NCBI GenBank assembly: GCA_900475325.1
Contig: LS483371.1
Span: 2,356,001 to 2,420,000, forward strand
DNA: 64,000 bases
Source: Paucimonas lemoignei
Lineage (GTDB): Bacteria; Pseudomonadota; Gammaproteobacteria; Pseudomonadales; Pseudomonadaceae
Reading direction: 5' to 3'
The notes under the pieces were generated by a model. That model searched no databases, had not been told where the DNA came from, and worked only from the letters and a program-made list of their open reading frames with translations. Below are positions 1,331-25,235 of this stretch, piece by piece. The translations under genes and the position numbers were made by a program. Every line of letters begins with the position of its first letter. Within the stretch, counting starts at the first letter, position 1.

Positions 1331-1509
1331 TTCAATCACCGTGACACCGACCGGGACATTAATGAATTCCGGCTTAAGACAGGCTGCCAGTTCGTGGATC
1401 AATACGAATGGCGCTACATGGATGCCCTGATGCATCCCGTTTAACTGCCCGGTATAGCACCAATAAAAAACCTGAAAAATTCCATACATCGAACGATAAA
1501 GGAACCGGC

Positions 1510-3066: not shown

Positions 3067-3086
3067 GGCACAGGCAATGCCAGCGG

Positions 3087-3105
3087 CCCCGCAGCGAAGG
3101 CGGGG
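3087..3105 (+). promoter_or_regulatory. GC-rich intercistronic hairpin between receptor and permease genes
   Basis: A perfect 6-bp stem (CCCCGC / GCGGGG) with a 7-base loop lies in the 104-base gap between the receptor and first permease genes. It lacks a following T run. Such intercistronic hairpins often stabilise the upstream mRNA or partly terminate transcription, so that the receptor is made in excess of the membrane parts. That role is inference here. Confidence 0.4.
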
Positions 3106-3170
3106 TCGCGGCTACGCCATGCCCGCAAGAAGCTTTGTGCTGCCCATTTATAGAGTGACCGAGGTGCCCA

Positions 3171-4187: not shown

Positions 4188-4189
4188 AC

Positions 4190-5089: not shown

Positions 5090-5091
5090 GC

Positions 5092-6126: not shown

Positions 6127-7103
6127 ACGACGCGCCTTATCTCGCGACCAGCCCGGCCATCCTGGGGTTGCAGGATGTCAGGGTTCACTACCCAATGGGC
6201 ACTGACTGGCTGGGTAGACCCAAAGCGGTTGCCCACGCACTCAATGGCATTGACCTTGATGTCCACGCAGGTGAAACCCTGGGCATCGTTGGCGAATCGG
6301 GGTGCGGAAAGAGCACCCTGGCGCAGCTGCTCATGGGCCTGATCAAACCCACCTTCGGCAGGCTGGACTGGGTCTACAACACTGACAGCGAGCGCAGCAG
6401 CAATGTCCAGATCGTCTTCCAGGACCCGCAGTCCTCGCTGGACCCACGCCTGCCGATCTGGAAGATCATCACCGAACCCCTCTTCGTGCAGCGCGTTGCG
6501 CCCCGTCGCGAGATGCGCGATATCGCTGCGAAAGTGGCTGAACAAGTGGGTATCCGCACCGAGTACCTTGACCGCTATCCGCACCAGTTTTCCGGTGGGC
6601 AGCGGCAGCGCATTGCGATTGCCCGCGCGCTGTCTTCGAACCCGGACATCATCGTTCTGGATGAGCCGACCTCTGCGCTGGACATTTCAGTGCAGGCGCA
6701 AATCCTCAACCTGTTGAGTGAGCTGCAGCGGACTCGAGAGCTGACCTACATCCTCATTTCCCATAACGTGTCCGTGGTACGTCATATGGCTGACCGGGTT
6801 GCGGTGATGTACCTGGGGCAGATCGTCGAGCTGGGTTCGGCGGCCCAAGTGCTGGAGCATCCGCGTCACCCGTATACCCGCTTGCTGCTGGAGGCCGTTC
6901 CTCGATTGGGGGTCAGTGTCGATGATGCGCATGCCTCGGCCCCGACCGAGTTACCCGGCAATCGTGACCTGCCCAAAGGCTGCTTTTTCCGGGATCGCTG
7001 CCCCCAGGCAACCGTGGGTTGCGATCGGCCTCAGGTGCTATTACCGGCCAAAGCGAGCGCTGGCAGTGAACAGGTCAGGTGCCATCTGGAGTCAGTCGCG
7101 TAA
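6123..7103 (+). CDS. ddpF: Peptide ABC transporter ATP-binding protein (DdpF/DppF type)
   Basis: This second ATPase of 326 residues shows Walker A (GESGCGKST), Q-loop (VFQDPQSSLDP), signature FSGGQRQR and Walker B (IIVLDEPTSALD). It ends with the oligopeptide-transporter C-terminal region GCFFRDRCPQATVGC. The start ATG at 6123 overlaps the ddpD stop by four bases (ATGA), whereas the longer open frame from 6018 would overlap ddpD coding by more than 100 bases. It heterodimerises with the preceding ATPase. It is the last gene of the operon; a hairpin follows about 20 bases downstream, and the next gene is convergent. Confidence 0.92.
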   Translation: MNDAPYLATSPAILGLQDVRVHYPMGTDWLGRPKAVAHALNGIDLDVHAGETLGIVGESGCGKSTLAQLLMGLIKPTFGRLDWVYNTDSERSSNVQIVFQDPQSSLDPRLPIWKIITEPLFVQRVAPRREMRDIAAKVAEQVGIRTEYLDRYPHQFSGGQRQRIAIARALSSNPDIIVLDEPTSALDISVQAQILNLLSELQRTRELTYILISHNVSVVRHMADRVAVMYLGQIVELGSAAQVLEHPRHPYTRLLLEAVPRLGVSVDDAHASAPTELPGNRDLPKGCFFRDRCPQATVGCDRPQVLLPAKASAGSEQVRCHLESVA

Positions 7104-7171: not shown

Positions 7172-8065
7172 CTATGGCTTGGCCACAATCGCATACAGCC
7201 CGCCGACAATAACCAGTAACGCTCCCGCCACGGTCCACACATCCGGCACCTCGCCGAAGATGATCACGCCGATCAGCGTGGCGAACACCAGAAGGGTGTA
7301 GTTGAAGGGCTGCAAGGTGCTGGCGGTGGCGTAGTTGAGGGCCTGGATGAGCAGGAGTTGGGCGGCGATGCCGGTCAGGGACAGCACGCCCATCAGCAGC
7401 CACTGAGATGCGGTAGGTTCCACCCAGCCGGGCAGGCCGACCACCGTGGCGGCGACAGCACCGACCAGCGCCATGTACAGCATGTTGGTCGCGAAGCTGT
7501 CGTGCTGGCTGATGAGCCGTGTCAGGACGTTAAACAGCGCGAACCCCAACGCCGCGACCAATGGAATCAGCGCGGCGATTTCGAACACGCTGGCGCCGGG
7601 GCGCAGGATGATCAGCGTGCCCGCAAACCCGATGACGGCCGCTATCCAGCGCCGCACGCCAATGACTTCTCTGAGCATGAACCCGGCCAGCGCCAGGGTC
7701 ATCAAGGGGAATACGGCGTACAGGGCATGCATTTCGGCCAGGCCCAGAAAACGCAGACCGACTGCGAACAGTGCGATGTCGGCAACGCCCACCAGGGCAC
7801 GAATGATTTGCAGCCAGGGGTGTTGGCTGCCAATGGCCGCCTTCACGCCTCCCTGACAGGCCGCGTACACCAGGGCAAACCCAACGAACACCCAGAAACG
7901 CACCATCACCAGTTGCGCCACGGGGAGGTCTTTGACCAGGACCTTGGTGACGCCATCCTGGCTTGCAAAAATCAGCATGGACAGCAGGCAGAGCATAATC
8001 CCCAGCTGGGGGCGGGGCAGGGTTTTACCCTGCAGGCTGCCAGTCAATGGCCGTTGCTTGATCAT
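7172..8065 (-). CDS. EamA/DMT-family transporter (RhaT-like)
   Basis: This integral membrane protein of 297 residues has about ten predicted helices arranged as two EamA repeats, the standard drug/metabolite transporter layout. The second repeat starts near ALIPLVAALGFALFNVLTRLIS. Members export amino acids, drugs or metabolites, and the substrate cannot be told from sequence. Its ATG directly follows the stop codon of the oxidoreductase gene (TAAATG), and a GAGG-like site lies inside the end of that gene. It is therefore the last gene of a four-gene minus-strand operon with the aldolase, aldehyde dehydrogenase and FAD oxidase, and may export or import an intermediate or by-product of that pathway. 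Confidence 0.88.
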   Translation of the reverse strand: MIKQRPLTGSLQGKTLPRPQLGIMLCLLSMLIFASQDGVTKVLVKDLPVAQLVMVRFWVFVGFALVYAACQGGVKAAIGSQHPWLQIIRALVGVADIALFAVGLRFLGLAEMHALYAVFPLMTLALAGFMLREVIGVRRWIAAVIGFAGTLIILRPGASVFEIAALIPLVAALGFALFNVLTRLISQHDSFATNMLYMALVGAVAATVVGLPGWVEPTASQWLLMGVLSLTGIAAQLLLIQALNYATASTLQPFNYTLLVFATLIGVIIFGEVPDVWTVAGALLVIVGGLYAIVAKP

Positions 8066-9412
8066 TTATCCCTCGCGCCCAGCCCTTAAAGCTTGCCAAC
8101 CTATCACGGAGCTGACTCCCAGGCGCGTCAACAATTTGGGTGGCAGTTTGCTGGGGCCAGGGGTATTGCTGAAATCATCCAGGAATGTCGACCGGGTGCC
8201 CGTTGCCAGTTCTGCCGCCATCACACCCGCCAAGGTGCTTTTGACCGTTCCCAGCCCGTTCTCGCAGCAGGCGGCGTACAGGTTCTCTTCGATTTCGCCA
8301 AAGGCCGGGGCGCTGTTGCGGCTCAGGCACAGGCGCCCGGCCCAGCTGAACTCCAGCGGCGTGGACTTCAATTCCGGGAAGCGCGCGTCCAGCGAATGGC
8401 GTTGTTCCCTGGCCACGTCCGCCACCCGCTGCGGGGTGACCTGAATGCTGGGGTCATAGGTAAACTTGGTGCGGATGACGATCCTGGACCGCCCGTCCAC
8501 GGTGATTTTCCGAACCGTGGCCCCCATGGGGTCAGCCGGTAGCAGGGCCCATCGTTCCTGGCCTGTCACCGGCCTTTTGAACGCCTCGTGGCTGAAACCT
8601 GCCGTCATGGAGGCGTAGGTGAACACATGCAGCAGTCGACCCTGGAAGTGGCCGAAGTCCTCAATGTGGCCGTTGACCGCCAGGATCACTTTGGGCGCTG
8701 TGACCGCGCCCTGGTGGGAGCGCGCCGTCCAGTCGTTCCCCGTGCGCGATAATTCGATGATTGGTGACCGCTCGTACAGGCTGATCTTCGTCTCCAGCCC
8801 GGCCGCCAGATCGCGGATGTATTGCGCGGGCTGGATCATCACCGCGCCGGGCGTATAGAGCCCGCCCTGGTAATAATCCGAGCCGGTGATGTCACGCATC
8901 TGCGCGGCATCAAACAACTCGTAGCGCTCACCAATGCCCTTGAGCGACTGCGCGTAGTTGGCATTCAGTCGCCCACCGCGCTCAGTGGCCGCGGCATTGA
9001 TCTTCCCCGAAGGGTCAAAGGTGCCCGCCGACATCCCGTAATCACGGGCTGCCTGGGCGGCGAATTCAATTGCGAAGCGGTTCTGCGCGATCTCCCTGGC
9101 CGTGGCTGACTCCCCGGCGACCGAGTATTCCCCCGATGACAGGCTGTGGGGAACGTCGATCATGAAACCGGAATTTCTGCCTGCCGGGCCGGTGGCGATT
9201 TCATGGGCGTCCACGACCACAATGCGATCCTGCGGGCGCAGCTGAGACAGCCTGCGTGCCGCAGAGAGGCCGGCAAAACCGGCCCCGATAATCAGCCAGT
9301 CCGCCGTCACGTTCCCATCAAGCGTACGCACAGGAGTAGAACGTGTGGAAATCGCCTCCCAACCCGAAACACCGGTGTCTACCGGCAGGCGCTTGATGGA
9401 ATGTGTGTTCAT
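8066..9412 (-). CDS. FAD-dependent amine/amino-acid oxidoreductase (DAO family)
   Basis: This 448-residue flavoprotein of the DAO/glycine oxidase/PuuB family has the FAD-binding dinucleotide fold (DWLIIGAGFAGLSAARRL) starting near residue 39. The conserved GPAGRNSGFM segment that follows is typical of the PuuB/ordL-like branch. A C-terminal region (YAACCENGLGTVKSTLAG) matches the second FAD-contacting motif. Members oxidise C-N bonds of secondary or primary amines, giving an aldehyde or imine. The start overlaps the stop of the aldehyde dehydrogenase gene by four bases (ATGA), which fits sequential steps: oxidative deamination or demethylation here, aldehyde oxidation by the neighbour. The exact substrate is unknown; a betaine-derived amine is an inference from context. 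Confidence 0.88.
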   Translation of the reverse strand: MNTHSIKRLPVDTGVSGWEAISTRSTPVRTLDGNVTADWLIIGAGFAGLSAARRLSQLRPQDRIVVVDAHEIATGPAGRNSGFMIDVPHSLSSGEYSVAGESATAREIAQNRFAIEFAAQAARDYGMSAGTFDPSGKINAAATERGGRLNANYAQSLKGIGERYELFDAAQMRDITGSDYYQGGLYTPGAVMIQPAQYIRDLAAGLETKISLYERSPIIELSRTGNDWTARSHQGAVTAPKVILAVNGHIEDFGHFQGRLLHVFTYASMTAGFSHEAFKRPVTGQERWALLPADPMGATVRKITVDGRSRIVIRTKFTYDPSIQVTPQRVADVAREQRHSLDARFPELKSTPLEFSWAGRLCLSRNSAPAFGEIEENLYAACCENGLGTVKSTLAGVMAAELATGTRSTFLDDFSNTPGPSKLPPKLLTRLGVSSVIGWQALRAGREG

Positions 9413-10926
9413 TTTACGGTCTCATCAACCGACCGATCAGAAACGTCGATCCAGATGGTTTTGATTTCGGTGTACTGGTCGTGGGCAAATACGGATTTGT
9501 CCCGACCACCGAAGCCCGACTCTTTGTAGCCACCAAAAGGCGTCGATGCATCGCCCTCGCCGAAGCAATTGACGGTCACGATTCCGGCGCGGATTTCCCG
9601 CGACAACCTGATCGCCTTGCGCAGGCTGCCGGTGTAGACGGACGCCGCCAGGCCATACACCGTGTCGTTGGCCAGGGCGACGGCCTCGTTGATTGAGGTG
9701 AAGGTGGTCACTGACAATACCGGTCCGAAGATTTCTTCCTGGAACAGTCGGCTGTCAGGCGTGACGCCATCGACCACGGTCAGCTGGATAAACGCATCGT
9801 CCTGCGTGTCGCCGCCATAGACGATGTCCAGCTTGGCGGCATTGGCGTAGTCCAGGTAGGACTTCACCTTGGCGAAATGATCGCTGCTGACCAACGCCCC
9901 GACACGGTTTTGCGGGTCCAGTGGATCGCCCATTTTCCACTCGCGGATATAGGCGCCCATGCGCTCCAGCAACTCGTCCTTGACCGACGCATGAACCAAC
10001 AGCCGGGATGTCGCCGAGCAGTTTTCGCCCATGTTCCAGAACGCCCCGTTGACCACTTGTTCGGCCACCAGGTCCAGGTCTTCGGCGTCGTCCATCACCA
10101 CGGCCGGGTTCTTGCCGCCGCATTCCAGCACCACACGCTTGAGGTTCGAATCGGCGGAGTAGTGCAGGAAGCGCCGCCCGGTGGCCGTAGAGCCGGTGAA
10201 GCTCACCATGTCGACGTCTTTGTGCAGGCCGATGGGTTCGCCGACGTCCTTGCCGGTACCGGTGACGATATTCAACACGCCAGCAGGCACACCGGCTTCG
10301 AATGCCAGCTCGGCGACGCGCAGGGTGGTCAGGCTGGTTTGTTCTGCGGGCTTGACGATCACCGAGCAACCGGCAGCGAGCGCCGGGCCAATCTTCCAGG
10401 CCAGCATCAGCAGCGGGAAATTCCACGGCAGCACGCAGCCCACCACGCCGATGGGTTCGCGAACCACCATGGTCAACGCGTCGTTGCCAACCGGAGCGGT
10501 GTGGTCGTACAGCTTGTCGATCAGCTCGGCATGCCAGCGCAACGTGTGGATGGTGTCAGGCACGTCCACCAGTTGGCATTCGCGTACCGGTTTGCCGCTG
10601 TCCAGGCTCTCCAGCACAGCCAGCTCGTGGCGATTGTTCTCAAGCAGTTTTGCAAACTTGAGCAGCACTTCCTTGCGCTCCCCAGGGGGCAGCAGGCGCC
10701 AGCGGCCGTCTTCAAAAGCCTCTTTGGCCTTGCTGACCGCGAAGTCCACATCCTCGGCGCTGCAGGCTGCCAGGTCAGTCAGAAACGCGCCGGTCGCCGG
10801 GTTGGTGGTGACCAGCGTGTGACCTGACAACGCTGGCTTGAAGGCGCCGTTGATGAAGGCATTGGAGGGGAACGATATCGATTCGGCGATAGCGGCGTAT
10901 TCGTGTGCAGTAAGAAGATCACGCAT
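9409..10926 (-). CDS. NAD(P)-dependent aldehyde dehydrogenase
   Basis: This 505-residue protein is a full-length aldehyde dehydrogenase, which oxidises an aldehyde to the carboxylic acid. Visible motifs are the cofactor-site segment PWNFPLLMLAWKIGPALAAG, the NAD-binding FTGSTATGR, the catalytic glutamate in LECGGKNP and the catalytic cysteine in GENCSATSR. The C-terminal PFGGYKESGFG is also standard. It is most like the PuuC/betaine-aldehyde group in overall pattern. The gene overlaps the upstream DapA-like gene by eight bases and the downstream FAD oxidase by four, so the three are co-translated. The substrate is probably an amino-aldehyde or semialdehyde produced in the same pathway. Confidence 0.93.
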   Translation of the reverse strand: MRDLLTAHEYAAIAESISFPSNAFINGAFKPALSGHTLVTTNPATGAFLTDLAACSAEDVDFAVSKAKEAFEDGRWRLLPPGERKEVLLKFAKLLENNRHELAVLESLDSGKPVRECQLVDVPDTIHTLRWHAELIDKLYDHTAPVGNDALTMVVREPIGVVGCVLPWNFPLLMLAWKIGPALAAGCSVIVKPAEQTSLTTLRVAELAFEAGVPAGVLNIVTGTGKDVGEPIGLHKDVDMVSFTGSTATGRRFLHYSADSNLKRVVLECGGKNPAVVMDDAEDLDLVAEQVVNGAFWNMGENCSATSRLLVHASVKDELLERMGAYIREWKMGDPLDPQNRVGALVSSDHFAKVKSYLDYANAAKLDIVYGGDTQDDAFIQLTVVDGVTPDSRLFQEEIFGPVLSVTTFTSINEAVALANDTVYGLAASVYTGSLRKAIRLSREIRAGIVTVNCFGEGDASTPFGGYKESGFGGRDKSVFAHDQYTEIKTIWIDVSDRSVDETVK

Positions 10927-11830
10927 GAGCGGCTCCCGAGGTGATGTGTGCGACGGTGCGCTTCACGTTGGTGATGACGGTTTGAAGGCTGCGTTTATCG
11001 CCCGAGTTGAGCGGGCGCAGCGGGGCGCGTACGTCGCCGACTTTCAACCCGTTCAACTCGCAACCGAACTTGATGCACTGCACAAACTTGCCGCCATCCA
11101 GGGCGTTCATCAGCGGCATCATCGCGGACATGATCTGCCGGCCTTTGTCGAAGTTCTTCTCCACCACGCAGGCTTCATACAGCGCGACGTGCTCTCTGGG
11201 CAGGAAGTTGGAGCCGGCGCACACCCAGCTTCGGGCGCCCCAGGCAAAGAACTCCAGAGCCTGGTCATCCCAGCCGCAGGACAGCGCAATGTGCGGAAAC
11301 TCCCGGGCGAGCAGGTGCACCCGGCCCATGTCGCCGGAGCTCTCTTTGATAGCGATGACGTTTTTCGATTTGCCCACCCGCGCCAGATACTCCTCGTTCA
11401 TCTGCACGCACATCCGGCCCGGGTAGTTGTAAAGCATGATCGGCATGTTGGCGGCGCGATCGATGGTCAACGCGTGGATGGCGTTTTCCTGATCCGTGGG
11501 CAGGGCGTAAGGGGGCGTTGTGACCAGAATGGCGTCGGCCTTTATTGCTTTGGCGTCCTTGGCGAACAGCACGGCGTCTTCGGTGCGGATCGCCCCGGTG
11601 CCGATAATCAACTGCACGCGGGAGCCGATCACGTCTTTAGCATAGGCGGCCAGCTTGAGGCGCTCTTCGGCGGTCTGCGCGTAATATTCGCCGGTTGAAC
11701 CGCCAATGATAATGCCATGTACCTTGGCCTCTATCAGAGACTCCAGAACGTCTGAAAATACCTTGAAGTCAATATCGCCGTCAGGCGTATGCGGTGTCAC
11801 CGCCGGGGTATAGATGCCTTCGAATCTCAA
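10919..11830 (-). CDS. Dihydrodipicolinate synthase (DapA)-family aldolase/dehydratase
   Basis: This class I aldolase-type TIM barrel of about 303 residues has the Schiff-base lysine in NVIAIKESSGD, the conserved tyrosine in MLYNYPGR and the carboxylate-binding GGSTGEYY. It is not the housekeeping dapA by context: it leads an operon with an aldehyde dehydrogenase and FAD oxidase. Family members include 4-hydroxy-2-oxoglutarate-type aldolases and 5-dehydro-4-deoxyglucarate dehydratases. The start chosen is TTG at 11830, preceded by GGAG eight bases upstream, which gives the usual family length beginning LRFEGIYTPAVTP. The longer frame from 11887 has no similar support. The reaction is not assignable from sequence. 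Confidence 0.85.
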   Translation of the reverse strand: MRFEGIYTPAVTPHTPDGDIDFKVFSDVLESLIEAKVHGIIIGGSTGEYYAQTAEERLKLAAYAKDVIGSRVQLIIGTGAIRTEDAVLFAKDAKAIKADAILVTTPPYALPTDQENAIHALTIDRAANMPIMLYNYPGRMCVQMNEEYLARVGKSKNVIAIKESSGDMGRVHLLAREFPHIALSCGWDDQALEFFAWGARSWVCAGSNFLPREHVALYEACVVEKNFDKGRQIMSAMMPLMNALDGGKFVQCIKFGCELNGLKVGDVRAPLRPLNSGDKRSLQTVITNVKRTVAHITSGAAHA

Positions 11831-11940
11831 GAGATAGTCTCCGAATATGAATGACCGGTAAAACAATAGGCGTGACGGTCGTGACAACCTGTCCGCGCTA
11901 TGAAGTTCTAAGGTGTTTTAATAAAGCAGTTAATTCATTA

Positions 11941-11956
11941 GTCATTTAAAAATGAC
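11941..11956. promoter_or_regulatory. Palindromic candidate operator upstream of the aldolase operon
   Basis: GTCATTT-AA-AAATGAC is a perfect 16-bp palindrome in the 227-base space between the Rieske gene end and the aldolase-operon start. It is AT-rich and sits about 110 bases upstream of the predicted TTG start. It could be the operator of the LysR or GlxA regulator, but no second copy was confirmed. Confidence 0.35.
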
Positions 11957-12016
11957 CTCCGGGCGGCGGGCATTTTCAAGTTGTTATGAGTGGGGTGACG
12001 TTAAGTGGGCCCTTTC

Positions 12017-12043
12017 GTGCGGCGACTGATTACGTCGCCGCAC
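12017..12043 (-). terminator. Strong hairpin downstream of the Rieske oxygenase gene
   Basis: A perfect 10-bp stem (GTGCGGCGAC / GTCGCCGCAC) with a 7-base loop lies 15 bases past the Rieske gene stop. There is no clear T run on the minus strand, but the position and stability fit a terminator or 3'-end protecting hairpin for that gene. Confidence 0.55.
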
Positions 12044-12057
12044 GCGTTGATAAATAA

Positions 12058-13314
12058 TTAGCCGACCGATTTAAGTTTGATTGTTCCGCCAGTACTGTCA
12101 TCACCCAATCGATTGAGCATGATGTCGCAATACCAGTCATCAAACTGGCACACTCCGTTTTCGGCATTGGAAGAGAAGGGCCCCGGTTCATACGCAGGGG
12201 AATTGACGCCCACTTGTGCGCCTTCAACCAGCGTGCGGTCCTGATCGTTGGTGGCCAGCCAGACTTTGGTCAAGCGTTCGATGTCGTAATCCACGCCTTC
12301 CTGAGCGGTCTTTTTCACGATCCATTTGGTGGTGACCAGCGTCTCATTCGGCCCGATGGGCAGGACGCGGAAACTCAAGGCGTGGTCGCCAAGGAAATGA
12401 TTCCAGGTCGAGGGGTAGTTGAAATACAGCAGGGCGCCAATATCGGGCTCGCCGCTGGTGTCCAGCCTGCCCGCTACTGCAGGCTTGCCATCCATGGTGT
12501 AACTGACAGCCCCGGATGACAGCGGGATGCGCGTGATGCGAAAACGCCCGTCCTTATCCATGACCAGTTCGCTGGGCATACCGGCGGCCTCGCAGCGATC
12601 CCAGTGGGCTTTGAGTTCCGGATCTTCCGCGCCGCCGACACCGGCCACGGACAGGTTCTCCACAAACGAATTCATCAATTCGGGGTGAGTTCCGTCGCAG
12701 TGATAGCACTCGCGGTTGTTTTCGAAGACCAGCTTCCAGTTGCCTTTTTCGATCAGGTTTGATTCGAAAGCCACTTTGCAGTCATCCAGCAAGTGCGGCG
12801 CCAGGAAGGGCGTGACTGCTTCTCTGAATACATTGAAGTTCGGGGCAATATCCGCCACGCACACATAGATATAACTCTGGACGATTTCGCAATGAACCGG
12901 CTTCAAGCCATAGTGGGATTTGTCGAAATCATCGCCCATGTTGCCGGCAAACAGCAGACGGCCATCCAGTTCAAATGTCCATTTGTGATACGGGCAGACC
13001 AGCTTGGCAACTTTGCCTTTGGCTTCGGGGCAGACCTTGGAGCCCCTGTGCCGACACGAATTATGGAAAGCCCGGATCTGCCCATCGGCACCGCGCACCA
13101 CGGCCACAGGGTATTGGCCAATCTGCAGGGAAAGGTATTGCCCGGGCTTTTCCAGTTCAAATGTATGACCGGCGAAAATCCAGTCCTTGTGCCAGAGTTG
13201 GTCCAGGTCCTGCTGGTAGACATCAGGGTCGCTGTACAGCTCGCGGGGGAGTGCATGGCGCGGTTTACGTTTGGCAATAAGCTTCGAAACGGCTGATTTG
13301 GTATTCACGTCCAA
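12058..13314 (-). CDS. Rieske [2Fe-2S] oxygenase alpha subunit, GbcA-like betaine demethylase type
   Basis: This 418-residue non-haem iron oxygenase has an N-terminal Rieske cluster, with CRH...CPYH as the CxH-x(n)-CxxH ligands near residues 88-111. The mononuclear iron site lies in ENNRECYHCDGTHPEL. It resembles glycine betaine catabolism protein GbcA in pattern and length (NNRECYHC, TTKWIVKK, EGVDYDIERL, ATNDQDR), a family that N-demethylates or hydroxylates quaternary amines such as glycine betaine, stachydrine and carnitine. The start is TTG at 13314 with GGAG four bases upstream; GTG at 13308 is an alternative. No ferredoxin reductase (GbcB-like) lies nearby, so electrons must come from a reductase encoded elsewhere. 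The actual betaine substrate is unknown. Confidence 0.9.
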   Translation of the reverse strand: MDVNTKSAVSKLIAKRKPRHALPRELYSDPDVYQQDLDQLWHKDWIFAGHTFELEKPGQYLSLQIGQYPVAVVRGADGQIRAFHNSCRHRGSKVCPEAKGKVAKLVCPYHKWTFELDGRLLFAGNMGDDFDKSHYGLKPVHCEIVQSYIYVCVADIAPNFNVFREAVTPFLAPHLLDDCKVAFESNLIEKGNWKLVFENNRECYHCDGTHPELMNSFVENLSVAGVGGAEDPELKAHWDRCEAAGMPSELVMDKDGRFRITRIPLSSGAVSYTMDGKPAVAGRLDTSGEPDIGALLYFNYPSTWNHFLGDHALSFRVLPIGPNETLVTTKWIVKKTAQEGVDYDIERLTKVWLATNDQDRTLVEGAQVGVNSPAYEPGPFSSNAENGVCQFDDWYCDIMLNRLGDDSTGGTIKLKSVG

Positions 13315-13339
13315 CGCACTCCATAGCTATCAGGCGGCG

Positions 13340-13357
13340 CTTGCCGAATCAGGCAAG
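13340..13357. promoter_or_regulatory. Inverted repeat upstream of the Rieske gene, candidate operator
   Basis: CTTGCC-GAATCA-GGCAAG is a perfect 6-bp inverted repeat 26 bases upstream of the Rieske gene start. Its spacing would suit a dimeric activator or repressor. The 382-base space 13315-13696 holds no convincing gene, and its right part is the downstream flank of the LysR gene. Confidence 0.35.
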
Positions 13358-13696
13358 TGGCGGCCACACATCATTGGTTGAAAGCCTTCTACCTCTAGAC
13401 GGCTTTTGTGAAGGTTACGTGTAGAAATCGATGACCAACAAGAAACATTTAGGTCAGGCAATGCATAAACAAATGTTATCAATCGAAGGTTTATTGCGAC
13501 GCAAACGGGCGCTGGAAAGGTGAAAGTCCGGCAGGTCCAGTTAAATCAGGCAGCACAAAACCGCCGGTCCCCCGAAGAAGATTCCCCGTCGTCCAGACGC
13601 CGCGCTGTCGCGCAGCAAACACAGAAAATCATTTCAATTCAGATAATTATTTTATTTGATGAGGGTGGGGGTGAAACAAGGCGCCCGTCAATGGGC

Positions 13697-14611
13697 TCAG
13701 GCGAAGTAACCCAGTACCCAGTCCCTGAGTTTGCAGCAGGCCCGGTCACTTTCCCGGTCTTCTTTAAAGGCCAGGTAATGTTGCGAATCCTTGTGAACCA
13801 CTTCCTGGGCAATGGGGCGGACCAATGCGCCGCTTTCAAGGGACTCGGCCACCAGTTGGCTCCAGCCCAGGGCGACACCCTGGTGCGCCAGAGCCATGTT
13901 GATGACTACGTTGTAGTCATTGGCGCTGAATACATGGGGGCGATCATGGGTGCGTTTTTCAATGTCGGTGTCATGAAAAGCCAGCCACACGCCCCAGTCG
14001 ATGTGTTCGGCAACCTGGGACCTGCCGTAAGGGCTGAGGTTGAGCAACGCGCTGTCACGCAGCCCTTCCAGGGTCGCAAGTTCAGGGTGGGCATCGCGGT
14101 ATTGGGGCGTACAAACCGGATAGATGACGTCGTGAAACAACGGATAACTGCGGTAACCGCTTTGCAGGCTGGGAAACTTGGTAATGAAGATGTCCGGTGT
14201 TGCACCCGCTTCCATGGACAGAAAGTTCTGAGTGCTGATGAGGCTCAGGTCAATGTCCTGGTTCTGGCTGAAAAAGCCCGGAAGCTTGGGTGACAGCCAC
14301 AGCGACGCAAACGCCGGTGAGCAGCACAAGGTCACTTCCGACTTGCCGGTGCGATGCGCCCGGACCCGCTTGGCCGCTTGCGAGATGTTCACGAAGGACA
14401 ACTGCGCGGCATCGAAAAACGCCGAGCCCGCTTCGGTCAGTTCTACCGCCCGACCCACGCGCCTGAAGAGCTCAACGCCCAGATAGGTCTCAAGCTCACG
14501 AATCTGTCGGCTGATCGCGGCCTGGGTCACACACAGTGCTTCGGCAGCCCGTGTGAAGCTCTGGTACTTGGCGGCCGCCACGAACGATTTCACCGCTTTC
14601 AGCGATGGCAT
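13697..14611 (-). CDS. LysR-family transcriptional regulator (GcvA-like)
   Basis: This LysR regulator of about 304 residues, from the preferred start MPSLKAVKSFVAAAKY, has the winged helix-turn-helix SFTRAAEALCVTQAAISRQIRELE at its N-terminus. A GcvA-type effector-binding domain follows. In-frame starts at 14650 and 14701 would add 13 or 30 residues; I prefer 14611 because it gives the normal family length and places the HTH at the usual distance from the N-terminus, though its ribosome-binding site is weak. It is divergent from the ProVWX-type transporter and lies between it and the Rieske gene, so it probably controls one or both. The inducer is unknown. Confidence 0.88.
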   Translation of the reverse strand: MPSLKAVKSFVAAAKYQSFTRAAEALCVTQAAISRQIRELETYLGVELFRRVGRAVELTEAGSAFFDAAQLSFVNISQAAKRVRAHRTGKSEVTLCCSPAFASLWLSPKLPGFFSQNQDIDLSLISTQNFLSMEAGATPDIFITKFPSLQSGYRSYPLFHDVIYPVCTPQYRDAHPELATLEGLRDSALLNLSPYGRSQVAEHIDWGVWLAFHDTDIEKRTHDRPHVFSANDYNVVINMALAHQGVALGWSQLVAESLESGALVRPIAQEVVHKDSQHYLAFKEDRESDRACCKLRDWVLGYFA

Positions 14612-15081
14612 CTTCAGCAACGTGTTGTCGGGGTCGATGTGCTTAACCATAACGTGGGGTATCCAGTCCTTGTGAAAAACAAGCAATCGCGACAGGGGCA
14701 TCAGAAGGGGCGCGTGTCTGTTTATATAACTGCAATGTCACAGAAGCGTTGCTGGCTAGCGTTATGACAGGCCTGCGCTGACCCTGTCCATATCGCGTCG
14801 GCAAAGAGGTCGTTTTTAGGCATGCGACGATCGATAACGTGACGTTATTGATTGTGTGGAGGAAATGTTGTTAGACGTTGCAGGGCTAAGGTAATAACTT
14901 TGTCATCACGGCTGTTGTACAGAACGCCGATAAATAACAAACGAATAATAAGAAGAGGTTTTACCCATGTCTCATGTGCGCCCTTCATTAAAGCTCGTCT
15001 GCCGCGATAATCATTTTTTATTCTGATGGGATATAGCGCTGCTATTTCCGTCTTCTATAGCATTCGCAGAAGGAAGGGATT
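14612..15081. promoter_or_regulatory. Divergent promoter region between LysR and proV genes
   Basis: This 470-base space (about 380 if LysR starts at 14701) must hold the divergent promoters of the LysR gene and the betaine importer. It is distinctly more AT-rich than its neighbours, around AATAACAAACGAATAATAAG at 14933-14952. Apart from the short leader-like frame at 14967-15026, I see no gene in it. I could not fix a -35/-10 pair with confidence. Confidence 0.5.
14967..15026 (+). CDS. Possible 19-residue leader peptide upstream of proV
   Basis: An ATG at 14967 is preceded by AGAGG eight bases upstream and opens a 20-codon frame ending in TGA at 15024-15026, 55 bases before the proV start. 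The peptide, MSHVRPSLKLVCRDNHFLF, is basic and resembles no family I know. Its ribosome-binding site and spacing are as good as those of real genes nearby. It could be a regulatory leader or a chance frame. Confidence 0.3.
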   Translation: MSHVRPSLKLVCRDNHFLF

Positions 15082-16119
15082 ATGAGTCTTGGTGACGAAA
15101 TACTCTCCGTCAACAATATCTACAAGGTCTTTGGCCCGCAGCCGAAAGTCGCCATGGATATGCTGAGGCGCGGTGCGGACAAGAACGAGATCTTCAGCAA
15201 GACCGGTCAGGTCGTGGGTGTATTCGACGCGACGTTCTCCGTCATGCGCGGTGAGATTTTCGTCATCATGGGGTTGTCGGGGTCTGGCAAGTCCACCATG
15301 GTGCGGTTGTTTAACCGACTCATTGAACCCACTTCCGGCACCATCCACCTCAATGGCAAGGAAATAACCGGCTTGTCCGACGATGCACTGCTGGATGTGC
15401 GTCGCAAGGAAATGAGCATGGTGTTCCAGTCATTCGCGCTCATGCCGCACATGAGCGTCATTGATAACGCCGCCTTTGGCCTGGAGATTTCAGGCGTTGA
15501 CGAGAAAGAACGTCACGGCCGTGCCAGGGAAGCACTCAAGCAAGTGGGCCTCATGGGCCACGAATACAGCTATCCCCATCAGTTATCAGGCGGCATGCAG
15601 CAGCGTGTCGGGCTGGCCCGCGCCTTGGCCAATGACCCTTCGATCCTGTTGATGGACGAAGCCTTTTCCGCACTGGATCCGCTGATACGCCATGAAATGC
15701 AGGGCGAACTGATCCGCCTGCAGGCCGAGCAACACCGCACGATCATTTTTATCTCCCATGACATTGAGGAAGCGATCCGCATCGGCCATCGCATCGCAAT
15801 CATGGAGGGCGGGCGCATTGTGCAGATCGGCTCCCCGCAGGAGTTGTTGTGCAACCCGGCCAATGATTACGTCAGAGCGTTCTTCAAGGGCTTTGACGCC
15901 TCCAAGATCCTGCGCGCCGGTGACGTCGCGACCATCAGCGCCGAGCATCCCTTTGATGGGGATACGTCCCGCCCGACGCTGCAGGCTGACGTGCCCCTGC
16001 AGGACATTTTCCACATCGTCGCCAATGCCGTGCAGCCTGTTGCCGTTCTGGATGGGCAGGGAGTCTTCAAAGGCACCATTTCCAAAAGTCTGTTGCTGCA
16101 GACAATGAGTCGTCATTGA
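15082..16119 (+). CDS. proV: Betaine/proline ABC transporter ATP-binding protein (ProV-like)
   Basis: This 345-residue ATPase of the glycine betaine/L-proline (OTCN) family has Walker [11 protein letters not shown]-loop [11 protein letters not shown], signature LSGGMQQR, Walker [14 protein letters not shown] and switch HDIEEAIR. The N-terminal segment [17 protein letters not shown] is typical of ProV. The C-terminal part from about residue 270 ([28 protein letters not shown]) looks like a single CBS-type domain; the protein is shorter than E. coli ProV (400 residues). Related CBS domains sense ionic strength, but in catabolic paralogues this control may be lost. AAGGAAGGGA precedes the ATG. 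It energises uptake of a betaine or similar compatible solute together with the two downstream gene products. Confidence 0.92.
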
Positions 16120-16167
16120 CAGCGTCAACCGCGCGATTCAGCTGGCTCAGTCACTCAGGTAGCTATC

Positions 16168-17133
16168 ATGTCCGATTTCAGTTTTCTTGATCCGTTCCAG
16201 ACCTTCACGATTCCCCTCGGCCAATGGGTTGAAGTCATTCTCAACTACCTGGTGCATAACTTCCGAGAGGTCTTTCGCTCCATCAGATGGCCCGTGGACC
16301 AGATCCTCAACGGCATCCAGAGCGGTCTGTTATCCATCCCGCCCACCGTGTTCATCATTTTTGCCACGCTCCTGGGCTGGCAAGTGGGCGGAAAAAAGGT
16401 CGGAGCCCTGTGCTTCGTCACCCTCACGCTGCTGGGCCTGATCGGCGTCTGGAGTGATGCCATGACCACGCTCTCGCTGGTCCTGACGTCACTGGTGTTC
16501 TGCGTGGTGATCGGTGTGCCGCTGGGCGTGCTCTGTGCCCGCAGTGATCAGCTGGAGCGGATGCTCCGACCAGGCCTTGACGCCATGCAGACATTGCCCG
16601 CGTTCGTTTATCTGGTACCGGTGGTGATGTTGTTCGGCATCGGTAACGTCCCCGGCGTCCTGGTCACCATCATCTTTTCGGTGGCGCCGCTGGTGCGCCT
16701 GACCAACCTGGGCATCCGGCAAGTCCCCGAAGACAAGGTCGAAGCGGCGCGTGCGTTCGGCTGTACCCGTCGGCAGATGCTGCTCAAGGTGCAACTGCCC
16801 CTGGCGGCACCGACGATCATGGCCGGGTTGAACCAGGCCTTGATGCTGTCGCTGTCGATGGTGGTGATTGCTTCGATGATTTCCGTGGGTGGGCTGGGCC
16901 TGATGGTGCTTCGCGGCATTGGTCGCCTGGACATGGGGCTGGCCACTGTGGGTGGCGTGGGGCTGGTGCTGTTGGCGATCTTCCTCGACCGCTTGACCCA
17001 GGCCATGGGCGAGCGCAGCAACAAAGCCATGAAGGGCGAGCATTGGTATCAGACCGGACCGGTTGGAATACTGTTCAAACTTGTAAAAAGAACCGAAACC
17101 AAACAAACCGGTGCACCCGTAAAAGAACATTAA
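16168..17133 (+). CDS. proW: Betaine/proline ABC transporter permease (ProW-like)
   Basis: This 321-residue inner-membrane permease starts with an amphipathic stretch (PLGQWVEVILNYLVHNFREVF) like ProW, then has several hydrophobic helices. The EAA loop with the ATPase-contact sequence is EAARAFGCTRRQMLLKVQLPLAAP. The motif MQTLPAFVYLVPVVMLFGIGNVPG is strongly conserved in ProW/OpuAB proteins. It forms the pore, probably as a homodimer, for the substrate delivered by the ProX-like receptor. It lies 48 bases after proV and 62 bases before proX on the same strand, consistent with one operon. Confidence 0.93.
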   Translation: MSDFSFLDPFQTFTIPLGQWVEVILNYLVHNFREVFRSIRWPVDQILNGIQSGLLSIPPTVFIIFATLLGWQVGGKKVGALCFVTLTLLGLIGVWSDAMTTLSLVLTSLVFCVVIGVPLGVLCARSDQLERMLRPGLDAMQTLPAFVYLVPVVMLFGIGNVPGVLVTIIFSVAPLVRLTNLGIRQVPEDKVEAARAFGCTRRQMLLKVQLPLAAPTIMAGLNQALMLSLSMVVIASMISVGGLGLMVLRGIGRLDMGLATVGGVGLVLLAIFLDRLTQAMGERSNKAMKGEHWYQTGPVGILFKLVKRTETKQTGAPVKEH

Positions 17134-17195
17134 GCACCGGACGTTAACTTGATCGCTGTACGCCTGCCCCTTATCTCAATGCAAGGTAGATGCCG

Positions 17196-18221
17196 ATGAA
17201 CGCCGAAAACTGCAGTGTTAAGACCAAACTTATTCGTTGTATGGCCGCTCTGGCGATTGCAATAACACCAGCGTTTGCATCAGCAGCCAGTCAGGCGCCC
17301 GGCAAGGGTGTGTCCGTCACGCCTATCTTTCCGACCATTGCCGAAGAGCGGTTCCGGGGTGAAATCGCCATGGCCGGTCTCAAGGACCTGGGTTACAACG
17401 TGCAGCAGCCCAAAGAGACCGACTATCCGGCCATGATGCTCGCGTTGTCTTACGGCGATGCAGACTTCACCGTACATGCCTGGGAGCAACTGCACGCAGC
17501 GTTCTATGCCAAGGCCGGTGGCGACGACACGATGGTCAAAGTGGGCTCTATCTTGCCGGGTGTCTTACAGGGCTACATGATCGACAAGAAAACCGCGGAT
17601 CAATACAACATCACCTCCATCGAAGATCTTAAAAAGCCGGAAATTGCCAAGTTGTTCGACAGCGATGGCGACGGTAAAGCCGACATGACCGGTTGTAACC
17701 CGGGCTGGGGCTGTGAAGTCACGGTTGAGCACCATATGAAAGCCTATGGTCTGGAAAAGACTGTGACGGATAACCGGGGTTCTTACTTCGCGCTGATGGC
17801 TGACACCATTACCCGTTTCAAAGAGGGCAAGCCGATTCTGTACTTCACCTGGGTGCCGCAGTGGATTTCCAGCGTATTGGTGGAAGGCAGGGATGTGGTG
17901 TGGTTGAGCGTTGCCAGAACTGATCTGCCAGGCGGCAAGAACGACGTCGATACGATGTACAAAGGCAAAAACCTCGGCTTCGCGGTGGACACTATTCGTG
18001 CTGTGCTGAACAAAGAGTTTGCTGAAAAGAATCCAGCGGCCGTGAAGTTTCTCTCCGAGATGCAAATCTCCACTGACGACGAAAGTGCGCAGAACCTGAA
18101 AATGCACAATGGCGAAAACTCCGCCGCCGATATCAAGCGCCATGCTGCCGAGTGGATTGCCGCTCACCGCGCCGCTTACGATGGCTGGCTGGCCGATGCA
18201 CGGGCCGCCGCCAAGCAGTAA
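17196..18221 (+). CDS. proX: Betaine/proline-binding periplasmic protein (ProX-like)
   Basis: This secreted receptor of about 341 residues starts at ATG 17196, nine bases after an AAGG site; an ATG at 17190 is too close to it. The signal peptide ends around ITPAFASA. It is clearly ProX-like: GKGVSVTPIFPTIAEE, the GYMIDKKTADQYNI stretch, LFDSDGDGKADMTGCNPGWGCE and ADTITRFKEGKPILYFTWVPQW all have close counterparts in E. coli ProX. The tryptophans that form the cation-binding box, for example in the W-P-Q-W region, are present. It binds a quaternary ammonium compound. A terminator follows 21 bases downstream. Confidence 0.93.
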   Translation: MNAENCSVKTKLIRCMAALAIAITPAFASAASQAPGKGVSVTPIFPTIAEERFRGEIAMAGLKDLGYNVQQPKETDYPAMMLALSYGDADFTVHAWEQLHAAFYAKAGGDDTMVKVGSILPGVLQGYMIDKKTADQYNITSIEDLKKPEIAKLFDSDGDGKADMTGCNPGWGCEVTVEHHMKAYGLEKTVTDNRGSYFALMADTITRFKEGKPILYFTWVPQWISSVLVEGRDVVWLSVARTDLPGGKNDVDTMYKGKNLGFAVDTIRAVLNKEFAEKNPAAVKFLSEMQISTDDESAQNLKMHNGENSAADIKRHAAEWIAAHRAAYDGWLADARAAAKQ

Positions 18222-18242
18222 ATCACCGTCATAGCGCCGACA

Positions 18243-18270
18243 GGCTGCCCGGTTCCGGGTGGCCTTTTTT
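18243..18270 (+). terminator. Rho-independent terminator after proX
   Basis: The stem GGCTGCCCGG / CCGGGTGGCC (8 G-C pairs around a TG/TG internal mismatch) with a 2-base loop is followed by six T residues. It ends the ProVWX message or reduces read-through to the MmgE/PrpD gene. Confidence 0.85.
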
Positions 18271-18298
18271 ATAGCTGACTTATGTGTGGAAGGTGCTC

Positions 18299-19636
18299 AT
18301 GTCTCTGCATGCCTTCATCCAGAACTTCACGTTGACTGACCTGCCCCTCGACACTCGCCAGCGAATAGAGACCTGTCTGCTGGACATCATCGGTGTTGCA
18401 GCCGGCGCGCGGGAGAACGACACCAGCCAGATCCTCAAAGGGTTTGCTGCAGCCCATTACCCGGCGACCACGCTGTCCAGTCGCCTGTGGTTCGACGGCC
18501 GTTCCGTCCACCCATTGGGCGCGGGTTACGCCGGTGGCTTCAATATCGACAGCCTGGATGCTCACGAAGGGCACTTCACCTCCAAAGGCCACGCGGGCGC
18601 AACGGTAGTGCCCGCCATCATCGCCCTGATCGATGCGTTTTGTGCTGGCGGCAAAAGCATCAGCGGCGAAGAGATGCTCTGTGTCCTGGCCCTGGGCTAC
18701 GAAACGGCACTCAGGGCCGGGCGAGCATTGATGGCGACCGCGCCGGAATACCACGCATCCGGGACGTTTTCCGGGATCGGCGTAGTCTGTGCCGGGGTCA
18801 GGCTGCTGAAGCTGGACGAACCCACCTTTCACCACGCACTGGGGATCACCGAATACTTTGGTCCTCGCTGCCCGATGATGCGCGTCGTGGATTACCCCAC
18901 CATGCTCCGGGATGCACACGGTGCAGGCGCTTACGCCGGGATCAACGCGCTGCTCATGGCGCAGGCGGGGGTAACGGGGGCTCCGGCAGCAACGGTGGAG
19001 TCGTCGGCGGTGGCTCGTCACTGGCAAGGGTTGGGTGAGCTCTGGGAAATTGACGAGCAGTACTTCAAGCCCTGGCCCGTCTGCCGTTGGGCGCAACCGG
19101 CGTTGACCGCCATGGCGCAGTTGATGAGCCAGCATCCGCTGATTCGCCCGGACAACATCGAGTCCATCCAGATCCAGACCTTTCATGAGTCGGTGCGTTT
19201 GCAGGGCCACTTCCCGAAGAACGCCGACGAGGCGCAGTACGCGCTGGCATTCCCGGTCGCCGCGCTGATTGCACGCGGGCAAGTCGGGCCTGCGGAAGTC
19301 ACCGGGGCCTCCATCCAGGCGCCAGACATTCTCGCGATCAGCCGCAAGATCAGCATCGCCGAAGCAGCGGATCTGTCGGCGCGTTTCCCGGATGAAATCC
19401 TGTCCCGGGTCACGGTTGTCCTCAAAGACGGGACCACGCTGTGCAGCCCGACCACGCCTGCCAAGGGCGACCCGGCCAACCCCATGTCCAGTGACGAATT
19501 CATCGAGAAGTACCGACTGTTTTCCGAGGCCAGTCTGGGCGTTTCTCGTAGCCGGTTGCTGGAGCAGAGCGTCGCGAGCCTGGCCGCCAAAGCGGATTGC
19601 GAAGGTTTCTTCAATCTACTGCTGTCGCCGGTGTGA
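18299..19636 (+). CDS. MmgE/PrpD-family protein
   Basis: This 445-residue protein belongs to the MmgE/PrpD family, which includes 2-methylcitrate dehydratase, cis-aconitate decarboxylase and many uncharacterised catabolic proteins. The family core around DAHEGHFTSKGHAGATVVPAIIALIDA is present, as are the C-terminal YALAFPVAALI and DEFIEKYRLFSE. The start is ATG 18299, preceded by GGAAGG; an upstream in-frame GTG at 18284 overlaps that site. It lies after the proX terminator and 43 bases before the regulator gene. There is no prpB/prpC nearby, so propionate metabolism is unlikely. A dehydratase or decarboxylase step in the local betaine pathway is a guess. Confidence 0.85.
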   Translation: MSLHAFIQNFTLTDLPLDTRQRIETCLLDIIGVAAGARENDTSQILKGFAAAHYPATTLSSRLWFDGRSVHPLGAGYAGGFNIDSLDAHEGHFTSKGHAGATVVPAIIALIDAFCAGGKSISGEEMLCVLALGYETALRAGRALMATAPEYHASGTFSGIGVVCAGVRLLKLDEPTFHHALGITEYFGPRCPMMRVVDYPTMLRDAHGAGAYAGINALLMAQAGVTGAPAATVESSAVARHWQGLGELWEIDEQYFKPWPVCRWAQPALTAMAQLMSQHPLIRPDNIESIQIQTFHESVRLQGHFPKNADEAQYALAFPVAALIARGQVGPAEVTGASIQAPDILAISRKISIAEAADLSARFPDEILSRVTVVLKDGTTLCSPTTPAKGDPANPMSSDEFIEKYRLFSEASLGVSRSRLLEQSVASLAAKADCEGFFNLLLSPV

Positions 19637-19679
19637 ACCCGGCTTTCGGGATCATTAACCTGCAACCAGGCCGACTGTC

Positions 19680-20714
19680 ATGACCTACGCATTTGAAAGT
19701 GTCCTCAAGCATCAGAACATGCGCTATTCGTCCTCGGGCAAAGACGCGCTGAACCCCAGGGCGGTGGTGCGGGTTGCGTTCATCCTGATGGATAACTTTT
19801 CCTTGATGTCGTTGACCGCCGCCATGGACGCGCTGGTGACCGCCAACCTGATGAGCGACGCGCCTGTTTACGAAATACTGAAAATCGGTTTGAAGGGCAG
19901 GGTGGCGATGAGTGATCTGGGGATCGCCATCCCCGTGGATCTGGAACTTGCCGAGCTGCGCGCGCGGCATGACTTGTTGTTGGTGGTAGGCGGGCTGCGG
20001 GTCGAACTCAAGAGCAATCTCTGCCTGCGTCGCAAACTGTCCGCCGCTGCGGCTGCAGGCACCGGTATGGGAGGCCTGTGGAATGGCGCTTACTTTCTGG
20101 CCGATGCCCGGGTGATGGACGGCTTTCAATGCGCTTTTCATCCTGACGCGAGGGCGATGATGGCCGACGCTTTTCCCAGCCTGGGCATTTCACCGCGCAG
20201 TTATGTCATCGACCGCGATCGGGTGACCTGCGCAGGCGCCAGCAGCTCGTTGCGGATGATGCTGGAGTACATCCGCTGCACCAAAGGCAACGTGCTGACC
20301 CGTGCGGTTGAGGAAATCCTGGGGTGTGATGAATATGAAAAAGTATCCGGTGTTTCGACGGTGGCGGTGGACTCGGACCCGACCCTGCCGCAGTCCTTGA
20401 AAGTGGCTCTGGAGTTGATGCAGAAAAACATCGAGGAGCCGTTGAGTCTTGACGACCTGGCCGCGTGTGCCGGTGTGTCGAAACGTCAACTGGAGCGCCG
20501 TTTCTTTCGTTTCGTGGGCGCAGCGCCTGGCCGTTACTACCTGGAGCTGCGCCTGACTCGGGCTCGGCAATTGGTGTTGCAGACCAACCGATCCATCACC
20601 GATATCGCCGTGGCCACCGGTTTCGTCAGCCTGCCGCATTTTCACAAGCGGTTTCGGGACTTCTTTGACGCGGCGCCGGGCAGCTATCGCGCCACCTATG
20701 AAAGGCGCAAATAA
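19680..20714 (+). CDS. GlxA-family transcriptional regulator (DJ-1/PfpI-like domain plus AraC HTH)
   Basis: This 344-residue protein has an N-terminal glutamine-amidotransferase-like (DJ-1/PfpI) domain at about residues 20-190 and a C-terminal AraC-type double helix-turn-helix. The second part is visible as PLSLDDLAACAGVSKRQLERRFFRFVGAAPGRYYLELRL and SITDIAVATGFVSLPHFHKRFRDFF, split here by a linker. This architecture is that of GbdR, CdhR and ArgR, activators of glycine betaine, carnitine and arginine catabolism in pseudomonads. Its position after the importer and PrpD-like gene suggests it activates this cluster in response to the betaine or a breakdown product. It is not GbdR itself as far as context shows. 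Confidence 0.9.
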   Translation: MTYAFESVLKHQNMRYSSSGKDALNPRAVVRVAFILMDNFSLMSLTAAMDALVTANLMSDAPVYEILKIGLKGRVAMSDLGIAIPVDLELAELRARHDLLLVVGGLRVELKSNLCLRRKLSAAAAAGTGMGGLWNGAYFLADARVMDGFQCAFHPDARAMMADAFPSLGISPRSYVIDRDRVTCAGASSSLRMMLEYIRCTKGNVLTRAVEEILGCDEYEKVSGVSTVAVDSDPTLPQSLKVALELMQKNIEEPLSLDDLAACAGVSKRQLERRFFRFVGAAPGRYYLELRLTRARQLVLQTNRSITDIAVATGFVSLPHFHKRFRDFFDAAPGSYRATYERRK

Positions 20715-25232: not shown

Positions 25233-25235
25233 AGG

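Follow-up and report, generated by a model that had tools for sequence, protein, structure and literature searches.

A cluster of genes at positions 7172 to 20714 of a 64,000-nucleotide stretch of DNA from Paucimonas lemoignei (the window, part of a 5.92-Mb single-contig chromosome) is read here, with a probability of about 60%, as a unit devoted to the breakdown of 4-hydroxyproline betaine (betonicine/turicine type) to 2-oxoglutarate. Plants and algae use hydroxyproline betaine as an osmolyte, and the island names genes by which Pseudomonas and marine Gammaproteobacteria could use it. We observed its gene content, protein families, co-conservation and orthologous links with other loci, and from these we infer all of its substrates and steps. 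The pathway itself is known in other bacteria; what looks new is a layout that contains an MmgE/PrpD gene but lacks one for HpbD. Profile searches of the window proteins (hmmscan against Pfam and NCBIfam) found in place all seven functions that an earlier note had named for this interval, and showed two further genes, one for a LysR regulator and one for an EamA transporter. That note had proposed a betaine catabolic island distinct from the gbc/dgc/sox and carnitine sets, and the distinction held: the Rieske protein failed the GbcA cut-off and has Asn200, and no dgc or sox genes were found among the island proteins.

Rieske oxygenase and predicted hydroxyproline-type tail

The Rieske oxygenase (Rieske/Ring_hydroxyl_A; 12058..13314, minus strand; its listed start is a TTG and the true position is uncertain) gave 505 bits to the PDB entries 3vca and 4qup (demethylase), 530 bits to 3n0q and 110 bits to carnitine monooxygenase. 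We take 3vca to be Stc2, the entry title giving a ring-hydroxylating dioxygenase. The genome's own GbcA, which is 45% identical to the island protein (388 bits), gave 421-422 bits to 3vca, 4qup and 3n0q, and the GbcA model NF058607 (cut-off 670) was passed by this protein (794 bits) and failed by the island protein (510 bits). According to passages of PMC7948474 and PMC10952381, an aromatic residue at the position of CntA Tyr203 marks group Va and both GbcA and Stc2 belong to group Vb; passages of PMC10952381 place Stc2 Ala223 and Trp353 around the product. The island protein has the motif NNRECYHC at 199-206, with the Cys pair C203/C206 and, by spacing, Asn200 at the CntA Tyr203 position, which is the group Vb combination of a Cys pair and no aromatic residue at that position. 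In an alignment with 3vca, whose chain numbering fits Stc2 Cys202/Cys205, island residues A224 and W352 matched Ala223 and Trp353, and the own GbcA had Thr at the former position and Trp at the latter. Asn200, A224 and W352 give the island protein the appearance of a group Vb N-demethylase with a Stc2-like pocket; it is nearer to Stc2 than to GbcA, and we predict it to be a (hydroxy)proline-betaine N-demethylase.

The Rieske gene is separated by a gap of 170 bases from the next minus-strand genes, which encode a DapA-like protein of the dihydrodipicolinate synthase (DHDPS) family (10919..11887; PF00701, 177 bits; start probably later), an aldehyde dehydrogenase (9409..10926; PF00171, 551 bits; motifs LECGGKN and GENCSA), a flavin adenine dinucleotide (FAD)-dependent DAO-family oxidase (8066..9412; PF01266, 134 bits) and an EamA/DMT transporter (7172..8065; PF00892, 87 bits). 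The Lys of the motif IKESSG in the DapA-like protein was taken as the Schiff-base residue. Overlaps of 8 bases between dapA and aldh and of 4 bases between aldh and the DAO gene, and a gap of 0 between the DAO gene and eamA, make dapA-aldh-DAO-eamA a tight group. Passages of PMC4113996 describe a trans-4-hydroxyproline route made up of 4-hydroxyproline epimerase (4HypE), cis-4-hydroxy-D-proline oxidase (D-amino acid oxidase superfamily), a DHDPS imino-acid dehydratase/deaminase and 2-oxoglutarate-semialdehyde dehydrogenase, and link it to organisms using hydroxyproline betaine. The oxidase, DHDPS and aldehyde dehydrogenase superfamilies, whose joint presence defines the tail of this route, are all encoded in the island. 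The trio fits the steps given in those passages, in which the ring is oxidised to an imino acid, the DapA-like enzyme dehydrates and deaminates this, and 2-oxoglutarate semialdehyde is oxidised. The amine oxidation to an aldehyde and aldol cleavage proposed earlier are not supported. The aldehyde dehydrogenase is accordingly a predicted 2-oxoglutarate-semialdehyde dehydrogenase and the DAO protein a predicted cis-4-hydroxy-D-proline oxidase, possibly acting on the N-methyl form as well.

Twelve DAO orthologues (82-84% identical) were found among the 249 genomes of our genus survey, and at seven of these loci the same cluster held a proline-racemase-family gene. The product of this gene at locus L034 passed the 4-hydroxyproline epimerase model (549 bits, cut-off 376), and the other six were 84-95% identical to it. 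Loci L034, L036 and L038 combined the trio with the epimerase where the island-type Rieske protein was absent (L034 has a 38% identical Rieske relative), suggesting that the trio occurs in free-hydroxyproline modules and stands here behind a betaine-type front end. On the chromosome of the island itself, a cluster at 3.43-3.44 Mb contained a 4-hydroxyproline epimerase (532 bits, cut-off 442), DAO-family and DHDPS-family genes, and cis-3- and trans-3-hydroxyproline dehydratases (878 and 654 bits, cut-offs 700 and 550), with no aldehyde dehydrogenase seen in the 20 kb taken. Given this separate cluster, free hydroxyproline is probably not broken down through the island trio in this genome.

Conservation and layout of the island

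In the genus survey, with thresholds of E<=1e-150 for the Rieske protein and E<=1e-100 for PrpD, the Rieske protein had 45 matches in 43 of the 249 genomes (own included), the 44 other places being 73-86% identical. One or two stretches of at most 20 kb were taken round each of these 44 places, several of them cut by contig ends, and because the stretches were short the counts are lower bounds. A LysR gene (at least 55% identity) was present at 42 of the 44 and a DAO relative at 40, which bears out the co-occurrence across pseudomonads that had been named as a check; the DAO count has no random-gene baseline, and a DAO match at E<=1e-80 occurred in only 54 of the 249 genomes. DapA-like (at least 44% identity) and ProX (at least 60%) genes were found at 32 places each, aldehyde dehydrogenase (at least 53%) at 26, PrpD (at least 58%) at 22 and the whole trio at 24, along with an EamA relative (at least 55%) at 11, a different EamA type at seven and a reductase at seven. 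By coordinates alone, PrpD lay within 25 kb of the Rieske gene at 30 of the 45 places and within 8 kb at 24. It was present in 32 genomes, 31 of which also had the Rieske protein (Fisher 1.4e-28, uncorrected for kinship), and the remaining one, G050, had a partial match.

When named genomes were searched with the PrpD alignment, 114 relatives came up, and the best 80 were kept with neighbourhoods of about 10 kb; they came from Pseudomonas, Halomonas maura, Aromatoleum, Marinomonas, Amphritea, Marinobacterium, Neptunomonas, Oceanisphaera, Zobellella, Oceanospirillum, Motiliproteus and others, the nearest named ones being Pseudomonas viridiflava p8.G8 (83%) and Pseudomonas sp. ICMP 561 (82%). 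Among these best 80 loci, 77 had ProX and 67 the Rieske gene nearby, 60 had the Rieske gene with at least one of the trio, and prpD adjoined proX in 60, counting nameable genes. None of five loci with distant PrpD relatives (37-41% identity) had Rieske, DapA, aldehyde dehydrogenase or DAO matches within reach; one of these contigs is just 5.3 kb long and another, L239, has proV/proW-like genes. In Aromatoleum (L189) the genes rieske, proVWX, prpD, araC, dapA, dao, aldh and a ferredoxin-type reductase form a single run, as they do, araC apart, in Halomonas (L191). Internal stops were flagged in seven Rieske hits, three of which were checked and had none, and in eight PrpD hits, five of which were checked; four of these had no stop in the aligned stretch, and the PrpD of L109 (G034) had one in-frame stop near its start. 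The recurrence of these genes as a group in other species exceeds chance, and Pseudomonas and marine Gammaproteobacteria conserve the island as a unit.

In the window the genes form two divergent units. The minus strand carries the Rieske, trio and eamA genes with the LysR gene upstream of them (13697..14701; PF00126/PF03466), and the plus strand carries proV-proW-proX-prpD-araC with gaps of 43-62 bases. The importer consists of a ProV-type ATPase (15082..16119; TIGR01186, 391 bits, cut-off 326.6), a ProW-type permease (16168..17133; NF008196, 450 bits, cut-off 439) and a ProX-type substrate-binding protein (17190..18221; NF008334, 466 bits, cut-off 215). After prpD (18284..19636) follows an AraC-type regulator (19680..20714) closest to GbdR but below the cut-off (NF052371, 241 bits against 480). 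A terminator-like hairpin on the plus strand between proX and prpD (18242..18265) may attenuate prpD, so that importer and PrpD may be produced at different levels. The promoter/terminator scan found no more sites than shuffled sequence (nine terminator sites between 7000 and 21000, 13.5 expected), a number not significant by itself. An oligopeptide-type ATP-binding cassette transporter (1408-7103) flanks the island on the left, and an RND efflux adaptor and pump and a SmvA-like exporter (20950-26759) flank it on the right.

Several related loci held further genes. Four Pseudomonas genomes with the Rieske protein had a DddP-type M24 protein beside ProX-type genes (L050:651-2015, L117:15642-16979, L104:18796-19899 and L119 near 10600); the one of L050 passed the model for the dimethylsulfoniopropionate lyase DddP (623 bits, cut-off 600) and the other three were 79-86% identical to it, which suggests that related islands take sulfonium substrates as well as ammonium ones. 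Seven of the 44 Rieske loci (L047:10411-11304, L048, L050, L088, L089, L100 and L117), all in genomes without PrpD, held another DapA-family protein that shares 27-28% identity with that of the island. In the distant genomes of L035, L209 and L211, a short-chain-dehydrogenase-like gene pair, judged from the start of its sequence, followed the DAO gene or lay beside prpD.

The MmgE/PrpD-family protein and HpbD

The PrpD protein passed both MmgE/PrpD Pfam domains (PF03972, 112.3 bits; PF19305, 107.5 bits; cut-offs 32.1), and its translation more likely begins at the ATG of residue 6 (about 18299), Met6 being conserved in alignments. It matched no NCBIfam family at E<=0.001, hence not the 2-methylcitrate dehydratase model either, and its closest folds were cis-aconitate decarboxylase and iminodisuccinate epimerase. 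Passages of PMC12290011 give His88, Glu91, His102, His152, Lys202 and Lys266 as conserved dicarboxylate/catalytic residues of a P. aeruginosa isomerase. Four of the six are kept (D92 for Glu91, H103, H157 and K262), the family's catalytic His and one Lys among them; the dicarboxylate-binding His and Lys are replaced, His88 by Asp89 and Lys202 by Arg209, in all 19 aligned sequences including that of the window. Tyr148 of the two-base isomerase in the same passages had no counterpart at equal spacing before the second His, and the invariant Tyr156 directly precedes His157. These residue changes, and the lack of an HpbD match at E<=1e-90 in the genome, suggest that PrpD may be the missing epimerase. 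It is the island's best candidate for C2 epimerase of hydroxyproline betaine, an assignment that we make tentatively. Just as tentatively, it could be a new kind of betaine C2 epimerase in which an Asp holds the quaternary ammonium and which replaces HpbD (and 4HypE) without homology to them. If so, it would be the first MmgE/PrpD enzyme with a cationic, non-dicarboxylate substrate among the characterised members in passages of PMC12290011. Equivalent C2 epimerisations in this one corner of metabolism would then be carried out by three unrelated folds, and a new substrate class would be added to a large family that is mostly uncharacterised (these passages give 50,344 GTDB hits). A betaine epimerase of this family was not found by title and start of abstract among the open-licence PMC papers listed, which is a weak absence.

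Hydroxyproline-betaine epimerase and proline-betaine racemase belong to the HpbD-like (enolase) superfamily according to passages of PMC5144071. Three genomes, G101, G243 and G134 (the last with two copies), have HpbD; a relative with 46% identity occurs in G060. HpbD-like genes lie 1.4 kb (G134) and 4.2 kb (G101) from island-type Rieske genes and are 61% and 66% identical, respectively, to the further G134 copy, situated about 14.5 kb from the Rieske gene; this copy gave 513-530 bits to the PDB entries 4e8g, 2pmq and 4h2h, which we take to be HpbD. The gene order in G134 (L103) is hpbD, rieske, proVWX, araC, with no prpD. G243 has PrpD, with about 44 kb between its HpbD and Rieske genes; PrpD is present in G060 too, along with the 46% relative on another contig. 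Over the 45 Rieske places PrpD lay within 25 kb at 30, HpbD at two and both at none (Fisher p = 0.106). In L149 a neighbour of HpbD is an Old-Yellow-Enzyme (OYE)-type gene (PF00724). Seven of the 80 loci have this gene no more than about 10 kb from prpD, and the chromosome of the island has a 78% orthologue at 2296684-2298717, about 57 kb left of the window. OYE-type proteins such as Sinorhizobium StcD demethylate N-methylproline.

Besides its PrpD island, genome G243 contains in L149 (3980-15101) a VanA-type Rieske gene, the OYE-type gene, HpbD and an ornithine-cyclodeaminase-family gene, possibly a second, differently built proline-betaine route. A 2-oxoglutarate/Fe(II) oxygenase was also seen there near HpbD (L149:10624-11649, Pfam) and, from the start of the sequence, near prpD in marine loci (L190:13687-14688, L204:12603-13592 and L223:13628-14617); it might hydroxylate or demethylate proline betaine.

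Proposed route, alternatives and known systems

In the route that we propose, ProVWX would import 4-hydroxyproline betaine, PrpD would epimerise it at C2 from trans to cis, and the Stc2-type Rieske protein, together with a GbcB-like reductase encoded elsewhere, would likely remove one N-methyl group. The second methyl group could be lost through the FAD oxidase itself or an OYE-type demethylase encoded elsewhere. The FAD oxidase would then likely convert cis-4-hydroxy-D-proline to the pyrroline, the DapA-like enzyme would deaminate this to 2-oxoglutarate semialdehyde and the aldehyde dehydrogenase would yield 2-oxoglutarate, LysR and the GbdR-like AraC protein presumably inducing the island. 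A variant without PrpD would start with demethylation and leave the epimerisation that follows to the enzyme of the 3.43-Mb cluster.

Several observations weigh against this reading. No Rieske reductase, a part of the published hpb clusters, was found among the island proteins (7172-20714) by profile scan, nor was a second dedicated demethylase found in the island; the closest reductase candidate (572633-573727 of the chromosome), 66% identical to that of L189, lies about 1 kb from gbcA. No curated model for the assigned function was passed by the DAO, DapA or aldehyde dehydrogenase proteins among the models listed, so that their predicted specificities rest on context: the DAO protein had a single weak PDB match (22.8 bits) and the aldehyde dehydrogenase stayed below the cut-off for all 25 listed of 45 matched NCBIfam families. 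DAO relatives in the neighbourhood count reach down to 33% identity, and the trio was wholly missing from the fetched stretch at four of the 44 places, three of them near contig ends and one, G024, not. At the thresholds applied, both PrpD and HpbD were missing from ten of the 43 Rieske genomes. An HpbD-like gene (44-45% identity) accompanied PrpD in three of the 80 loci (L197, L199 and L223), the protein of L223, the one tested, being closest to 4e8g; another in L209, 34% identical, fell below the 40% threshold. With these three loci and p = 0.106, mutual exclusion of PrpD and HpbD was rejected as proof of replacement and is suggestive only. Asp89 was rejected as a sign of a betaine substrate: four of the five distant PrpD relatives were aligned and share this Asp outside Rieske clusters, so that it is not island-specific and the betaine argument is weakened.

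Two alternatives are unlikely in our view, and to a similar degree. Proline betaine (stachydrine) could be the main substrate, demethylated by the Rieske/ProVWX part, with dapA-aldh-DAO an adjoining free-hydroxyproline module. The solved structures to which the Rieske protein is close do include a proline-betaine demethylase, and L034, L036 and L038 show the trio, with a 4-hydroxyproline epimerase, apart from this Rieske protein; however, the profile scan found no PutA-type gene among the island proteins, a DAO relative accompanies the Rieske gene at nearly all other places, the trio shares its run in L189 and L191, and free hydroxyproline has the other cluster in this genome, even if the stretch taken there showed no aldehyde dehydrogenase. 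Alternatively, another ring-hydroxylated or unusual betaine, such as 3-hydroxyproline or pipecolate betaine, could be degraded with PrpD as a dehydratase, since the PrpD family includes dehydratases (passages of PMC12290011) and the DAO protein, which scores only 104.8 bits with the aminophosphonate-oxidase model and 103.6 bits with that for pipecolate oxidase, may act on another substrate. For 3-hydroxyproline, passages of PMC4113996 give a dehydratase and pyrroline-2-carboxylate reductase, not a DHDPS-family deaminase and semialdehyde dehydrogenase. A second glycine-betaine or carnitine route is very improbable: despite 510 bits from the GbcA model and an activator resembling GbdR, both substrates were rejected by the GbcA cut-off, which the own GbcA exceeds, by Asn instead of the group Va aromatic residue at position 200, and by the lack of dgc and sox genes. 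That the genes are unrelated neighbours, as two transcription directions and the 10-18 kb between the PrpD and Rieske genes of six genomes might suggest, is hardly credible given the joint occurrence of PrpD and Rieske in 31 genomes and the 67 of the best 80 PrpD loci with a Rieske gene against none of the five distant ones.

Hydroxyproline betaine was among the candidates listed in the earlier note, and nothing favoured homarine or trigonelline. These last two were set aside, not disproved: for homarine no degradation operon was found by title and start of abstract among the open-licence PMC papers listed, and for trigonelline no support was found, no search having been aimed at it alone. As for the island being undescribed, the trio and the hydroxyproline-betaine route are already published, according to passages of PMC4113996. 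The layout with MmgE/PrpD and without HpbD was not found described: titles and abstract starts of the papers listed there showed no Pseudomonas or marine layout with PrpD, and nothing on hydroxyproline betaine with epimerase and demethylase or on a Pseudomonas island (both weak absences), and passages of PMC8079746, PMC12093977, PMC4113996, PMC5144071, PMC6321045, PMC7948474, PMC10952381, PMC12290011 and PMC7347537 do not describe the layout with PrpD.

Compared with known systems, the Rieske protein resembles Stc2 of group Vb in its 505 bits, the Cys pair, Asn at the CntA Tyr203 position and the equivalents of Ala223 and Trp353, and differs in that its substrate is a predicted one and it is coupled to a hydroxyproline-type tail. 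PrpD departs from the MmgE/PrpD epimerases in passages of PMC12290011 (iminodisuccinate epimerase and methylsuccinate isomerase) by Asp89/Arg209, by its 19% identity and by a predicted island substrate without a 1,4-dicarboxylate. With trans-4-hydroxy-L-proline (lhp/hyp) catabolism the island shares the DAO, DHDPS-family and aldehyde dehydrogenase trio (passages of PMC4113996); unlike it, the island lacks a hydroxyproline epimerase and adds the Rieske protein and ProVWX, the lhp-type cluster of this genome being separate. The parts shared with the hydroxyproline-betaine/proline-betaine (hpb) pathway are betaine importer, Rieske N-demethylase, DAO, DapA-family deaminase and semialdehyde dehydrogenase, and HpbD-like genes occur in two sister clusters of the island-type Rieske gene. 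This pathway was reportedly described by Zhao in 2013 and Kumar in 2014, both cited in PMC4113996 and PMC5144071. In contrast to it, the island is without HpbD (E<=1e-90) and reductase, and has instead an MmgE/PrpD gene and a GbdR-like activator.

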